Shown one piece after another: positions 18,043-23,712 of a DNA stretch of 32,874 bases. How positions within the stretch are numbered: position 1 is the first letter of the stretch; the number at the start of each line of letters is the position of its first letter. This DNA comes from Desulfurobacteriaceae bacterium (GTDB lineage: Bacteria; Aquificota; Aquificia; Desulfurobacteriales; Desulfurobacteriaceae): contig JALSNF010000042.1 of assembly GCA_026987115.1 (NCBI GenBank), forward strand, positions 1 to 32,874. The letters run 5' to 3'. Under the pieces are notes generated by a model. The model ran no database searches. It was not told where the DNA came from and worked only from the letters and a program-made list of their open reading frames with translations. The position numbers and the translations under genes are program-made.

Positions 18043-19104
18043 TTAAAACCCTAAAAACTTTACTATCTCTTCCTTTTCTGCCGGGAGGGTAGTAGGCTTA
18101 ACTCCCGTCATCATAGCAGTGTCAGGGTCTTTAAGGCCGTGGCCCGTTAAAGTGCAGACTATAACGTCTCCCCTTTCAAACATATCTTTTTCTCTCACGC
18201 TCTTTATAACTCCTGCAATTGAAGCGGCAGAAGCAGGTTCGCAGAATATACCTTCGGTTCTGGCAACCAGTCTGTAAGCTTCAAGTATCTCTTCGTCGCT
18301 AACCATGTCTATAAAGCCTCCAGACTCCTTAGCAGCGTTAACCGCTCCCTCCCAGCTTGCGGGGTTGCCTATCCTTATTGCAGTTGCAATAGTCTCAGGG
18401 TTTTTAACAGGGTGGCCCAAAACTATCGGAGCTGCCCCTTCAGCCTGCCAACCGCACATCTTGGGAAGTAAGTCAACTTTACCGGCTTGGTAAAACTCTT
18501 TATATCCCATCCAGTAGGCGGTTATGTTCCCGGCGTTCCCAACTGGGATAAAGTGGTAGTCTGGAGCTCTCCCAAGTTGCAGGCAGACCTCAAAGGCGGC
18601 AGTTTTTTGGCCTTGGAGCCTGTAAGGGTTTATTGAGTTAACTATAGTAATCGGGTATTCCCTTCCTATCTCCCTAACGATGTTTAAAGCATCGTCAAAG
18701 TTGCCCTTTATCTGGATAACTTCTGCTCCGTACATAACGGCTTGGGAGAGTTTTCCAAGGGCAATTTTCCCCTCAGGTATGAGGACGACCGCCTTTAACC
18801 CGGCCTTGGCAGCGTAAGCGGCTGCTGAAGCGGAGGTGTTGCCGGTAGAGGCACATATAACGGCCCTTGCCCCTTCCTCAACGGCCTTTGAAACGGCCAC
18901 AGTCATTCCCCTGTCCTTAAAGGAGCCCGTAGGGTTGAGGCCTTCAAACTTTAAATAGAGCTCTATACCCTCCTTTATCTCCTTTGCCAAGTTGTCTGCC
19001 TTTATTAAGGGAGTGTTCCCTTCAAGGAGGGTTATTACGGGGGTCTTATCTGAAACCGGCAGAAACTCCCTAAACTCGTTAATTACTCCTTTCCACCTCT
19101 CCAT
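18043..19104 (-). CDS. thrC: Threonine synthase
   Basis: ThrC, of 353 residues, is a PLP enzyme that converts O-phosphohomoserine to threonine. The PLP lysine lies in [16 protein letters not shown] (K63). The phosphate-binding loop follows as [39 protein letters not shown] and [15 protein letters not shown] are further family blocks. I chose the ATG at 19104 because a GGAGG ribosome binding site lies 6 bases upstream and the protein then opens [18 protein letters not shown] longer reading from 19140 would add 12 residues and has no such site. It is coupled to hisZ downstream, 1 base apart, and divergent from dapA. Confidence 0.95.
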
Positions 19105-19183: not shown

Positions 19184-20056
19184 ATGTTTGAAGGCATATA
19201 TGTTGCAATACCTACTCCTTTTAAGGGAGGGGAAGTTGATAAAAGAGCTCTCAAAGAGCACGTAAACTTCCTCATAGAGAGTGGGGTTGACGGGATAGTT
19301 CCCTGCGGGACTACCGGAGAAAGTGCTACCTTATCTTACAAAGAGCACGAAGAGGTTATCGCCTTAACCATTGAAGAGGCTAAGGGAAAAGTAAAGGTAG
19401 TAGCAGGAACAGGCTCAAACTCAACGAAAGAGGCAATTGAACTTACAAAGTTTGCCTACAGGGCAGGGGCAGACGGAGCTCTCTTAATAACCCCATACTA
19501 CAACAAGCCCAACCAAGAAGGCCTTTACCTTCACTTTAAAGCCGTTGCAGAGGCAGTTCCCATCCCAATAGTTTTATACAACGTTCCAAGTAGAACAGGG
19601 GTAAACATGCTCCCTGAAACGGTAGCAAGGCTGTCAGAGATAGACAACATAGTAGCGGTTAAAGAGGCAACGGGGAGCACGAGCGTTGCAACCGAGATTA
19701 TCAACTTAACAAAAGGAAAAATAGAGGTACTCTCGGGAGACGACCTTACCTTCTTCCCCCTCTTAACGGTAGGAGCAAAGGGGGTGATATCCGTTACGGC
19801 AAATGTGGTTCCAGAGAAAATGGTTAAGATGTACAGGGCCTTTAAAGAGGGAAGGTGGGAGGAGGCCTCAGAGATTCACAGGGAGCTCTACGACCTATCA
19901 AAAGTCCTCTTCATAGACACAAACCCCATCCCGGTAAAAACCGCACTCTCAATGATGGGGAGAATGGAAAAGGAGTTTAGGCTGCCCCTTTGCCCAACAA
20001 CTCCAGAAAAAGAGGAAGTTATAAGGAAGACCTTAAAAGAATACGGAGTAATATAA
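19184..20056 (+). CDS. dapA: 4-hydroxy-tetrahydrodipicolinate synthase
   Basis: DapA, of 290 residues, condenses pyruvate and aspartate semialdehyde in the first step specific to lysine and diaminopimelate. It is a TIM barrel with the conserved GIVPCGTTGESATL (T44, T45), the tyrosine in VLYNVPSRTGVN (Y132) and the Schiff-base lysine in IVAVKEATGS (K160). I chose the ATG at 19184 because it has a GGAGGAAGG ribosome binding site and gives the family start MFEGIYVAIPTPF. The frame stays open further upstream to 18992, but that part overlaps thrC. The next gene begins 1 base after the stop. Confidence 0.97.
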   Translation: MFEGIYVAIPTPFKGGEVDKRALKEHVNFLIESGVDGIVPCGTTGESATLSYKEHEEVIALTIEEAKGKVKVVAGTGSNSTKEAIELTKFAYRAGADGALLITPYYNKPNQEGLYLHFKAVAEAVPIPIVLYNVPSRTGVNMLPETVARLSEIDNIVAVKEATGSTSVATEIINLTKGKIEVLSGDDLTFFPLLTVGAKGVISVTANVVPEKMVKMYRAFKEGRWEEASEIHRELYDLSKVLFIDTNPIPVKTALSMMGRMEKEFRLPLCPTTPEKEEVIRKTLKEYGVI

Positions 20057-20057
20057 A

Positions 20058-21089
20058 ATGGCACTAGCTTCAGGACTTGACTACAGAGACTTAGAAAGGC
20101 TTCTCCTCTATTTTGAGATAAGGGAAAAGGATATTAAAAACCTTATGTTCCTCGGTCAAATTCTCATTCCCTACAAAGAAGAGTTTGCAGAGGCTTTCTA
20201 CGACAACCTTATGAAGTTCCCAGACATAAAAGATTACATACCGGAAGAGAAACTCCAGAGGTTAAAGGAGACAATAAAAGACTGGTACGCTAAGCTCTTT
20301 TCAGGCAAGTACGACTCAGAGTACCTCCTTTACCTGTTAAAGATAGCGAAAGTTCACGTGGAAGAGGGAATCCCCCCTCACTACATAATAGTTGCAATGA
20401 ACTTTGTAAGCCGCTTCTGCACCAGGAGAGTTTCAGAGTACTTTAAAAAGCACGGACTCTCCTTTTTCAAGGAATACCAGAGGGAACAGGAGAAGTTCTG
20501 CGACCCTCAGAACTTGGAAACCCTTGAAAGGTTCGTAATAGAAGAGCTCTTTGACAGGATGGAGGACCTAACCCGCTCACTTAGGAAGATAATTGCCCTT
20601 AACGAGGACGTTTTAATCTCATACTACGTTGACGCTGAAATGAAGACCTTCCTTGAGGCAGGAAGGACTGAGAGGTTTGCAATTGCCTTTAGCAAGAGGT
20701 TTGCAGTTTTTATGGACATTGCAATACTCATTGGCCTTATGTTCTTAGCGCTTTTCGTAATAGCCCTTTTCGTAAAGGACGTGGTCCACTTCTTCCACGG
20801 AGACCTTGCCCACAGTCTAATAGCAGCAATGGGAGACCTCCTTATACTCTGGACAGTCCTAGAGCTCCTTAACAGCGAAATAAAGTTCATGCTGGGAGGA
20901 GAGCTCGCAGTAAGCGCCTTTGTAAGCGTGGCCTTGGCTGCAACCATCAGGGAAGCCTTAGTAGTTTCCCTTGAACACGGGAAGCCCATAGAGTTTAAGC
21001 TGGGGATTGGAGCTCTCATCTTCATTCTCGGCGTAGTTTACGGAATAGTTAAGTGGTTTGAGATAAAACAGAAAAAGAGGTTAAGGTAA
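20058..21089 (+). CDS. Membrane protein: protoglobin (globin-sensor) domain fused to a PsiE-like domain
   Basis: This 343-residue protein has two parts. Residues 5-175 look like a protoglobin or globin-coupled-sensor haem domain, with the F-helix pattern KIAKVHVEEGIPPHYIIVA, in which H100 is the candidate haem ligand. After a helical linker, residues 215-335 form a membrane domain of about four helices (219-241, 255-272, 283-303, 316-333). The segment LELLNSEIKFMLGGELAVSA and AATIREALV resembles the PsiE family. A haem sensor that signals to or through the membrane is plausible, with O2, NO, CO or redox as possible inputs. The ligand and output are unknown. It sits between dapA (1-base gap) and dapB (TAATG, 1-base overlap). 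Confidence 0.75.
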   Translation: MALASGLDYRDLERLLLYFEIREKDIKNLMFLGQILIPYKEEFAEAFYDNLMKFPDIKDYIPEEKLQRLKETIKDWYAKLFSGKYDSEYLLYLLKIAKVHVEEGIPPHYIIVAMNFVSRFCTRRVSEYFKKHGLSFFKEYQREQEKFCDPQNLETLERFVIEELFDRMEDLTRSLRKIIALNEDVLISYYVDAEMKTFLEAGRTERFAIAFSKRFAVFMDIAILIGLMFLALFVIALFVKDVVHFFHGDLAHSLIAAMGDLLILWTVLELLNSEIKFMLGGELAVSAFVSVALAATIREALVVSLEHGKPIEFKLGIGALIFILGVVYGIVKWFEIKQKKRLR

Positions 21090-21871
21090 TGGTAAAGCTG
21101 GCAGTTGCAGGTGGAAAAGGGAGAATGGGAAGCTTGATTGCAAGGCTTGCCCTTGAAGACAAAGACTTTAAACTAATAGGTCTAACAGAAAGACCAGACA
21201 GCAAAGAGATAGGAAGAGAGTTTGAAAAAGGCGTAAGGTTTTACTCCTCAATTAAAGAGATGGAAGAAAAGCCCCAAGTAGTGATTGACTTTACAACTCC
21301 CCAAGGGACCTTAAGCCTTTTAAAAGAGGCAGTTGAGCTCAAAGTTCCCTTAGTTATAGGAACGACCGGTTTTGAAAAAGAGGAGCTCAAGGAGATAGAG
21401 AAAGCCTCAAGGGAAGTGCCCATAGTCTTTTCCCCCAACATGAGCTTAGGAGTAAACCTCTTGTTTAAGTTGGTAAGTGAAGTTAGCAAGGCGTTAAAAG
21501 ACAAGGGATACGATGTTGAGATATTTGAGATTCACCACAGGTTTAAAAAAGACGCCCCCTCTGGAACGGCAGTTAAGCTTGCCCAGATAGTTGCAGAAAA
21601 CCTCGGGAAAGAGCTTGAAGAAGTAGGAGTTTTCGGCAGAAAGGGAATAACAGGAGAGAGAAAGCCCGAAGAGATAGGTATTTTGTCTGCAAGGATGGGA
21701 GACGTTGTGGGAGAGCACACGGTTTTCTTTGCAACGCTTGGAGAAAGGCTTGAGTTAACCCACAGGGCAACAAGCAGGGAGACCTTTGCAAGGGGAGCTC
21801 TAACTGCTGCAAAGTGGGTAGTGGATAAAGAGCCGGGACTTTACAACATGTTTGACGTTTTGGGAATTTAA
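21089..21871 (+). CDS. dapB: 4-hydroxy-tetrahydrodipicolinate reductase
   Basis: DapB, of 260 residues, reduces the DapA product with NAD(P)H to tetrahydrodipicolinate. The Rossmann motif is KLAVAGGKGRMGSLIARLA at the N-terminus. VIGTTGFEKEELKEI and IVFSPNMSLGVNLLFKL follow. The catalytic block EIFEIHHRFKKDAPSGTAVK contains the conserved His-His and the active-site lysine. RATSRETFARGALTAAKWV closes the family signature. The length is standard. The ATG overlaps the stop of the globin-PsiE gene by 1 base, so translation is coupled. hisA follows 9 bases after the stop. Confidence 0.96.
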   Translation: MVKLAVAGGKGRMGSLIARLALEDKDFKLIGLTERPDSKEIGREFEKGVRFYSSIKEMEEKPQVVIDFTTPQGTLSLLKEAVELKVPLVIGTTGFEKEELKEIEKASREVPIVFSPNMSLGVNLLFKLVSEVSKALKDKGYDVEIFEIHHRFKKDAPSGTAVKLAQIVAENLGKELEEVGVFGRKGITGERKPEEIGILSARMGDVVGEHTVFFATLGERLELTHRATSRETFARGALTAAKWVVDKEPGLYNMFDVLGI

Positions 21872-21880
21872 GGGGGAAAG

Positions 21881-22600
21881 ATGTTTGAAGTAATACCGGC
21901 AGTTGACATAAGAGGGGGTAAGTGCGTTAGGCTCTACCAAGGAAGGTTTGACGAGGAGAAGGTTTACTTTGAAAACCCAGTTGAAGTTGCAAAGAGGTGG
22001 GAAAGGGAAGGAGCAAGGAGAGTTCACGTTGTTGACCTAGACGGAGCTCTAAAGGGAGCTCCCCAAAACCTTGAAACGGTTAAAGAGATAGTCAAAGAGC
22101 TCTCGGTTCCCGTTCAGTTTGGAGGGGGAGTAAGGAGCCTAAAAGCCCTTGAAGAGCTCTTTAAAATAGGAGTTGACAGGGTCGTTGTGGGAACCGTTGC
22201 AGTTGAAGAGTCAAACCTCTTTAGGGAAATGGCAAGGAGTTTCCCGGGAAAGGTCGTCGTAGGAATAGACGCAAAAGAAGGAAGGCCTACAACGAGAGGG
22301 TGGTTGGAAGTTTCAGAATTTAGCGCCGTTGAGGTTGCAAGGAAACTTGAAGAAGAGCCCATCTGGGGCTTCGTATATACGGACATTACAAGGGACGGAA
22401 CTTTAACCAGCCCAAACTTTAAGGAAGTAGAGAACTTTGCAAGAAGCGTTAAAAAACCGGTAATAGCGTCCGGAGGAGTCTCTAAACTTGAAGACCTAAT
22501 TAAACTGTCCCGGCTTAAAAATGTAGTTGGAGCAATAGTAGGAAAAGCCCTTTATGAAGGGAAGATTGAACTTAAAGAGGCCTTAAAGGAGCTCCCTTGA
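21881..22600 (+). CDS. hisA: ProFAR isomerase (1-(5-phosphoribosyl)-5-[(5-phosphoribosylamino)methylideneamino]imidazole-4-carboxamide isomerase)
   Basis: HisA, of 239 residues, is a TIM-barrel isomerase in histidine synthesis. The half-barrel repeats are visible: EVIPAVDIRGGKCVRLYQG with the first catalytic aspartate, VDLDGALKGAPQN, VQFGGGVRS, and then VVGIDAKEGRPTTRGW, FVYTDITRDGT with the second catalytic aspartate, VIASGGVSK and VGAIVGKALYEG. The length is standard. The ATG at 21881 has an AGGGGGAAAG ribosome binding site. The 3' end overlaps the TTG start of the RNA ligase by 4 bases (TTGA). Other his genes are not adjacent; hisZ lies on the other strand 4 kb away. Confidence 0.95.
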   Translation: MFEVIPAVDIRGGKCVRLYQGRFDEEKVYFENPVEVAKRWEREGARRVHVVDLDGALKGAPQNLETVKEIVKELSVPVQFGGGVRSLKALEELFKIGVDRVVVGTVAVEESNLFREMARSFPGKVVVGIDAKEGRPTTRGWLEVSEFSAVEVARKLEEEPIWGFVYTDITRDGTLTSPNFKEVENFARSVKKPVIASGGVSKLEDLIKLSRLKNVVGAIVGKALYEGKIELKEALKELP

Positions 22601-22625
22601 AACTAGAGCTTAAAGAGGCCTTAAA
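22568..22625 (+). repeat. Direct repeat across the hisA / RNA ligase boundary
   Basis: Two 20-base copies, 22568-22587 and 22606-22625, match at 19 of 20 positions and are offset by 38 bases. Because the genes are in frames offset by 2, the copies encode nearly the same peptide in each gene: ELKEALKEL at the end of hisA and ELKEALNEV at the start of the ligase. A local duplication is one explanation; shared codon usage is another. Confidence 0.5.
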
Positions 22626-23712
22626 CGAAGTAGAGGGCAACAAGTTCTTTAAGGTAATTGAGGAGGGAGACCTAATTAAAGTCTCCTACAGGTTTAACTC
22701 TCCTAAAGTCTTTGATACTCCCCTAAAGAGGGAGTTAAGGGGAATAACTTTCTTTAAGAGCTCCGGGAAAGTAGCCTCAAGGCCCTACCACAAGTTCTTT
22801 AACCTAAACGAGACAGAAGAGAGTAGAGAGGAGAACTTTAAAGGGAGAGAGCTCCTTTTTAGGGAAAAGCTTGACGGAGTAATGCTTCACCCTGTCTTAA
22901 TTGACGGAGAAGTAAAACTCCTAACTCAGAAAGACTTTAGCAACCCTCAAACCCAAAAAGGAGAAGAGCTCCTAAGGAAAAACGACAAGCTATACTCCCT
23001 CGTAAAGGAGCTCCTTGAAAAGGGACATACCCCAATACTTGAGCTGGTGTCTCCCGAATTTCAAGTCGTAGTTCCTCAAGAAGAGGAAGAGCTCTACATA
23101 ACGGAAGTAAGGGAAAACGAAACTGGGAAGTACCTCCTTGAAGAGGTTGAAAGGGAGCTAAAAGAGAGGGGAGTTAAGCTCCCAAAGAAGACAGTCTCAA
23201 CTTTAGAAAAGGTAAAAAAGGAGCTCTCAGAGAGGGAAAACTTTGAAGGCTACGTCTTAAAGGACTTTAAAAGGAAAGAGCCCTTCCCAACCTTCGTAAA
23301 GGTTAAAACTCCTTGGTATCACAAAGCCCACTACGCCTTTACCTACCTCCACAACATACCTTCCCACAAGCTCTTTAACCTCTATTTAACCGGAAAAAGC
23401 GACGAGCTATTCTCCCAGATAACAAACCAAAAGGTTAAGGAGAAAAGGGAAGAGGAGCTTAAAAAGATGGTGGAGCTCCACCTTACGCTACTTGACCTAA
23501 TCAGAAAGGGGAAAAAACCACAGGAGATAACCAAAGAGATAAAAAGGGCCTTTTCAAAAGAATTTAAGCTCCTTGAGATTGACGAAAAATACCTAAAAGA
23601 AGCCCTAAGGCTCTTTAAAGGGAAAAAAGCCTACGACAAGTACTTGGGAACTAAACTCTACATACTAATTAAGGAAGGGAAAGTCCTCCCCAAAACTAGG
23701 GAAGGGGAATAG
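22597..23712 (+). CDS. T4 Rnl1-family RNA ligase (TTG start)
   Basis: This 371-residue protein has the nucleotidyltransferase motifs of ATP-dependent RNA ligases. Motif I is LFREKLDGVML with K91 as the adenylated lysine. Upstream are RELRGITFF and SRPYHKFFNLNE, typical of the T4 Rnl1 branch. Motif III is ILELVSPE (147-154), motif IV is NFEGYVLK (215-222), and motif V is FVKVKTPWYHKAH (233-245). A helical C-terminal region (about 250-371) follows, as in Rnl1. Such enzymes seal 3'-OH and 5'-phosphate RNA ends, for example in tRNA repair. No polynucleotide kinase domain or kinase gene is adjacent. The TTG start overlaps the hisA stop and uses AAAGGAG within hisA. Confidence 0.88.
   Translation: MKLELKEALNEVEGNKFFKVIEEGDLIKVSYRFNSPKVFDTPLKRELRGITFFKSSGKVASRPYHKFFNLNETEESREENFKGRELLFREKLDGVMLHPVLIDGEVKLLTQKDFSNPQTQKGEELLRKNDKLYSLVKELLEKGHTPILELVSPEFQVVVPQEEEELYITEVRENETGKYLLEEVERELKERGVKLPKKTVSTLEKVKKELSERENFEGYVLKDFKRKEPFPTFVKVKTPWYHKAHYAFTYLHNIPSHKLFNLYLTGKSDELFSQITNQKVKEKREEELKKMVELHLTLLDLIRKGKKPQEITKEIKRAFSKEFKLLEIDEKYLKEALRLFKGKKAYDKYLGTKLYILIKEGKVLPKTREGE

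Follow-up and report, generated by a model that had tools for sequence, protein, structure and literature searches.

The gene studied here lies on the forward strand of the window, by which we mean the whole stretch of 32,874 nucleotides analysed, between dapA and dapB (Table 1). A single open reading frame carries two domains recognised by Pfam, an N-terminal Protoglobin domain and then a PsiE domain. Together with the translation, this confirms the Protoglobin-PsiE fusion that an earlier note, made from the sequence alone, had placed between the two dap genes. The start of dapA was picked from the length of its relatives (290-291 residues), the longest open reading frame beginning at 18992. 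dapA ends 1 bp before the start of the fusion, a GGAG motif at its end stands about 9 bp upstream of the fusion ATG, and the fusion stop codon shares one base with the start codon of dapB (TAATG); from this spacing, translation of the fusion would be coupled to that of both neighbours. The nearest named relatives are metagenome assemblies of Desulfurobacteriaceae and Thermovibrio (Aquificota), with which the window genome groups. Further downstream, at 22597-23712 (+), the window encodes a T4 Rnl1-type RNA ligase (PF09511, E 6.6e-24) whose gene overlaps the preceding hisA by 4 bases; many of the Desulfurobacteriaceae loci inspected likewise have a relative downstream of hisA.

Table 1. Position of the fusion gene, its domains and predicted key residues, and its neighbours in the window
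Feature	Position	Strand	Basis
dapA (context)	19184..20056	+	Pfam DHDPS
Likely ribosome-binding site GGAG for the fusion, at the end of dapA	20045..20048	+	Sequence
Protoglobin-PsiE fusion gene, 343 aa	20058..21089	+	ORF, ATG to TAA; translation; Pfam
Globin sensor domain, residues 10-195	20085..20642	+	Pfam Protoglobin; Foldseek to AfGcHK, GsGCS and HemAT
Y48 codon, predicted distal B10 Tyr	20199..20201	+	Aligns with AfGcHK Tyr45 and GsGCS Tyr40
H100 codon, predicted proximal haem ligand (F8)	20355..20357	+	Aligns with AfGcHK His99 and GsGCS His93
Lengthening (~33 aa) of the G/H helical hairpin, about residues 130-166	20445..20555	+	Alignment
PsiE four-helix membrane domain, residues 205-343	20670..21086	+	Pfam PsiE; AlphaFold2 PsiE-only model; alignment
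E269 codon (TM2)	20862..20864	+	Invariant in aligned fused and free PsiE
R298 codon (TM3)	20949..20951	+	In every fusion reaching there and all but one free PsiE
dapB (context)	21089..21871	+	Pfam DapB_N/DapB_C

Both Pfam matches score far over their cut-offs (residues 10-195, E 2.6e-25, 89.7 bits against 25 for Protoglobin; residues 220-333, E 1.2e-15, 58.2 bits against 23.9 for PsiE, PF06146), and therefore neither is a chance match. When the globin was compared by sequence with solved structures, GsGCS was the closest (E 1.6e-19), ahead of further sensor globins that included AfGcHK and HemAT. The AlphaFold2 model of the full-length protein (mean pLDDT 80) shows helices in the globin order; the relative placement of the globin and PsiE domains in this model is uncertain, its pTM being 0.56. 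A Foldseek search with the globin model returned sensor globins for all of the ten best matches, with TM-scores on the target of 0.76-0.87, and the best solved match was AfGcHK, at 0.87. The match to globin folds, on which the earlier note had made its reading depend, is thus good.

The F-helix motif quoted in that note is present and its histidine is residue 100, the predicted proximal haem ligand. L69 aligns with the distal Leu68 of AfGcHK and, judged from these residues and from Y48, the globin pocket of the fusion looks like that of an O2-type sensor. H100 is kept in all of the 16 Desulfurobacteriaceae copies aligned, and Y48 is kept across them with the exception of genus g7. Altogether, the Pfam match, the fold and the alignment of the ligand residues support the claim of a sensor domain of the haem-globin type. 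The lengthening of the G/H hairpin, around which the model places helices at residues 107-145 and 150-200, is found in most Desulfurobacteriaceae and is absent from genus g7 and outside the family; in most copies of the family it carries a Cys-Asp-Pro motif. The window genome also encodes a second, single-domain protoglobin (L074 10-699, on contig C35 of G000), which keeps a proximal-type histidine (RVGLVHVANG) and is followed by a gene that we judged by eye to encode an M23 metallopeptidase.

PsiE is a common domain that, to our knowledge, has no known function or activity. Hydropathy points to four transmembrane helices, as do two AlphaFold2 models (full-length and PsiE-only), so that the description of this region as a four-helix PsiE-like membrane domain also stands with its Pfam match. 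To judge from the basic residues at 213-214 and 337-343, both ends of the domain would lie in the cytosol. A profile comparison with E. coli PsiE spans the whole domain (HHalign probability 71%, E 3.6e-5), and a search of the PDB for PsiE relatives gave no similar solved structure (best E 0.54). Two residues are nearly invariant in the membrane: E269 is present in 64/64 fusion rows and in 18/18 rows of free PsiE, a set that includes E. coli PsiE and counts it twice, and R298 in 63 of the 64 and 17 of the 18 rows, respectively, the exceptional fusion row ending with its contig. The Desulfurobacteriaceae form also shows four histidines (H244, H247, H252 and H307; window 20787-20978) at the predicted outer face, two of which, H244 and H307, are matched in E. 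coli PsiE; the four could possibly form a metal site. In the full-length model, only two residues separate the end of the globin H helix (150-200) from the helix containing TM1 (203-247), and this near-continuity would give a signal an obvious path.

The fusion is old and widely distributed, being carried by this vent-type anaerobe and by numerous distant relatives. A fusion-profile search of 390 genomes found it in the Aquificota families f1, f3, f4 and f5, as well as in 16 genomes of 12 families outside this phylum; the majority of Aquificota have it, and PsiE follows the globin within a single open reading frame in every intact relative. Family f2, represented by two Desulfurobacteriales genomes, gave no match, and plasmids gave matches to the globin domain only and none to the full fusion. 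Our PsiE survey covered 136 Aquificota genomes. A quick PsiE tree clusters the fusions and leaves free PsiE outside, with a support of 94 on a branching that is drawn as unsettled and has long branches; free PsiE from genus g11 nest within the fusions. A single origin of the fusion is thus likely but not proven.

Comparison of these relatives indicates that the two domains do not have the same fate. The proximal histidine is replaced by Phe in the 7/7 genomes of family f5 and by Gln or Leu in both genomes of f111, a family outside Aquificota, which makes two losses on a tree computed without that alignment column; the distal B10 tyrosine has changed at least six times on the tree. The retention of H100 in homologues, which mattered to the earlier note's reading, therefore holds throughout the aligned Desulfurobacteriaceae and fails in f5 and f111, so that haem sensing is not universal among the fusions: the haem reading is well supported for Desulfurobacteriaceae, but not for every relative. 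Genus g11 shows a stepwise loss of the globin between the same flanking genes, with an intact fusion (L041), a copy in which most globin motifs are destroyed (L050) and, at the same locus, PsiE without any globin (L044, L045 and L057); L040 was excluded from this globin-less set because its contig stops inside the gene. A CdaA-type diadenylate cyclase (PF02457) is encoded among the neighbours at the g11 locus. Relative to the window protein, identity in genus g7 and family f5 is 30-50% for the globin, against 59-78% for PsiE. From these alignments, PsiE reads as the part protected by selection and the globin as a detachable regulator. Since the globin decays repeatedly while PsiE persists, it is probably PsiE that acts as the effector, with the globin regulating it.

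As to the signal, the related Thermovibrio ammonificans, a strict anaerobe, lives by nitrate or sulfur respiration and possesses cytochrome bd as well as enzymes that detoxify oxygen (PMC3570795, PMC5441870), and the window genome also encodes cytochrome bd. By analogy with this physiology, O2 would be the likeliest signal, and NO would come next. The presence of cytochrome bd did not correlate with the state of the haem ligand, 6 of the 7 f5 genomes that lack the histidine having this oxidase. A PsiE-family protein is encoded in a stress-tolerance island of E. coli together with KefB and thioredoxin (PMC7010813), which we take as a hint, no more, of envelope or redox stress.

We propose, as the overall best and a reasonably probable explanation, that the protein is a globin-coupled sensor with the membrane bundle of PsiE as its output. 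The cytosolic N-terminal globin would bind haem through H100 and read a gas, presumably O2, which is toxic to these strict anaerobes, or else NO. The bound ligand, steadied by Y48, would shift a dimer interface formed by the G and H helices, as in other globin-coupled sensors, and the long H helix, running almost straight into TM1, would alter the state of the four-helix bundle. The conserved Glu and Arg are likely to be the working residues of PsiE, which may act as an effector in some membrane or envelope stress function, while the position between dapA and dapB would supply constant expression and carry no role in diaminopimelate synthesis. Weighing against this explanation, two clades that keep the fusion have lost the proximal histidine, so that the globin persists there without this ligand. 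Moreover, our neighbourhood survey found no recurrent neighbour that names a pathway across families, and PsiE has no similar solved structure to lean on.

An unlikely alternative, although the best placed of them, is that the globin is an enzyme tethered to the membrane near the respiratory chain, with an activity of the NO dioxygenase or peroxidase kind or as a scavenger of O2 or NO, PsiE being an inert or partner-binding anchor. The retained haem ligand residues would suit such an enzyme, as would the nitrate or sulfur respiration and the oxygen-stress enzymes of the relatives and the cytochrome bd of the genome itself. However, no reductase partner is fused to the globin or present in a recurrent neighbourhood, the nearest globins are sensors, and an anchored enzyme would predict the opposite of the observed loss of the globin with PsiE kept.

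Next in plausibility, and doubtful as well, comes a globin that works without haem. Globin folds devoid of haem occur in some stressosome proteins, where they dimerise or bind a partner, and the domain could likewise be a dimerising or partner-binding scaffold that tunes PsiE to some input other than a gas. The replacement of the proximal histidine in f5 and f111 and the repeated alteration of the B10 tyrosine speak for such a scaffold, but in Desulfurobacteriaceae the conservation of H100 and, outside genus g7, of Y48 speaks against it.

A bolder and rather improbable reading is that globin-PsiE proteins are an old and undescribed class of haem sensors that directly gate a membrane conductance or switch. 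PsiE would then provide a proton or ion pathway through its Glu and Arg, gated by O2 or NO, and free PsiE, such as that of E. coli, would be the same device under other control.

The genomic setting bears on a last alternative, in which the protein regulates diaminopimelate or cell-wall synthesis. Among the 19 Desulfurobacteriaceae genomes that have the gene, the fusion lies immediately 5' of dapB in all and directly 3' of dapA in 17; the gaps that were measured range from about -4 to +10 bp. One of the two exceptions, G016, has a contig that starts at the fusion gene. In the other, G008, dapA is set apart from the fusion by a restriction-modification pair, which comprises a DNA methylase and an MjaI-type restriction endonuclease (PF09568, E 1.1e-72; L142 5659-7537); this insertion breaks the presumed coupling to dapA. 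In addition, the fusion is deleted from G019, of genus g7, where dapA and dapB are intact and 57 bp apart (L105 6973-7029), with no remnant of the fusion seen in the gap. Association with dap genes is confined to Desulfurobacteriaceae, where the whole purA-hisZ-thrC/dapA-fusion-dapB block is syntenic, and the adjacency therefore amounts to one inherited fact. In families f3, f4 and f5 and outside Aquificota, the fusion stands beside unrelated genes that differ by lineage, resembling cysS, pyrH, argF, secA or purH in sequences judged by eye. Pfam further identified histidine kinase and GGDEF genes near the fusion at L084, an SCO1/SenC gene adjoining it in an f3 genome (L068 6222-6824; a similar gene occurs in L073), and, outside Aquificota, a pst-like transporter operon encoding a substrate-binding protein and two permeases that resemble PstS, PstC and PstA. 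This operon, together with a redoxin-like gene, lies directly 3' of the fusion (L083 1938-5364). The SCO1/SenC neighbour is a possible link to oxidase assembly; as pathway clues, these SCO1/SenC, redoxin-like and pst-like genes are too few and were set aside. Because neighbours vary by lineage and G019 has lost the gene, the position is uninformative about lysine synthesis: that the protein regulates diaminopimelate or cell-wall synthesis is very improbable despite the tight adjacency, and a functional meaning of the dap operon was rejected. The earlier note was right to be cautious here, its suggestion that the operon merely provides expression being the one that the survey supports.

Returning to the globin-coupled sensor with a PsiE output, we found no paper in the open full-text literature that contains both 'protoglobin' and 'PsiE'; none of the open literature covered by the search describes such a protein, and subscription journals or domain-architecture databases may list it. 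The usual outputs of globin-coupled sensors are chemoreceptor, kinase, GGDEF and STAS domains. As PsiE is not among them, the fusion is a variant of this class, to which it adds an integral-membrane output. It also gives a handle on the function of PsiE: a natural PsiE switched by haem would combine an optical readout with a controllable input, making PsiE activity testable, and the intact, haem-ligand-less and globin-less proteins found in nature form a series ready for comparison.

A parallel can be drawn with several known systems. Like the fusion, AfGcHK (PDB 5ohe/5ohf) places a globin at the N-terminus and an output at the C-terminus, with the globin fold, the proximal histidine, the B10 tyrosine and the distal leucine at matching positions; its output is a histidine kinase, whereas that of the fusion is a four-helix membrane domain. 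GsGCS from Geobacter sulfurreducens (PDB 2w31) is the top sequence match to the fusion globin among solved structures, and differs in that its His66 is replaced by Ile73 in the window protein, so that a second histidine ligand is unavailable at this position. The HemAT aerotaxis transducers (PDB 1or4/1or6) share the globin-coupled sensor layout and a similar globin, but their output is a chemoreceptor signalling domain. On the membrane side, E. coli PsiE (PF06146), which owes its name to induction by phosphate starvation, is free-standing and has no globin, yet it displays the four transmembrane helices, the Glu in TM2 and the Arg in TM3, and shares with the Desulfurobacteriaceae form a (D/E)xxH motif after TM1 and a histidine after TM3.
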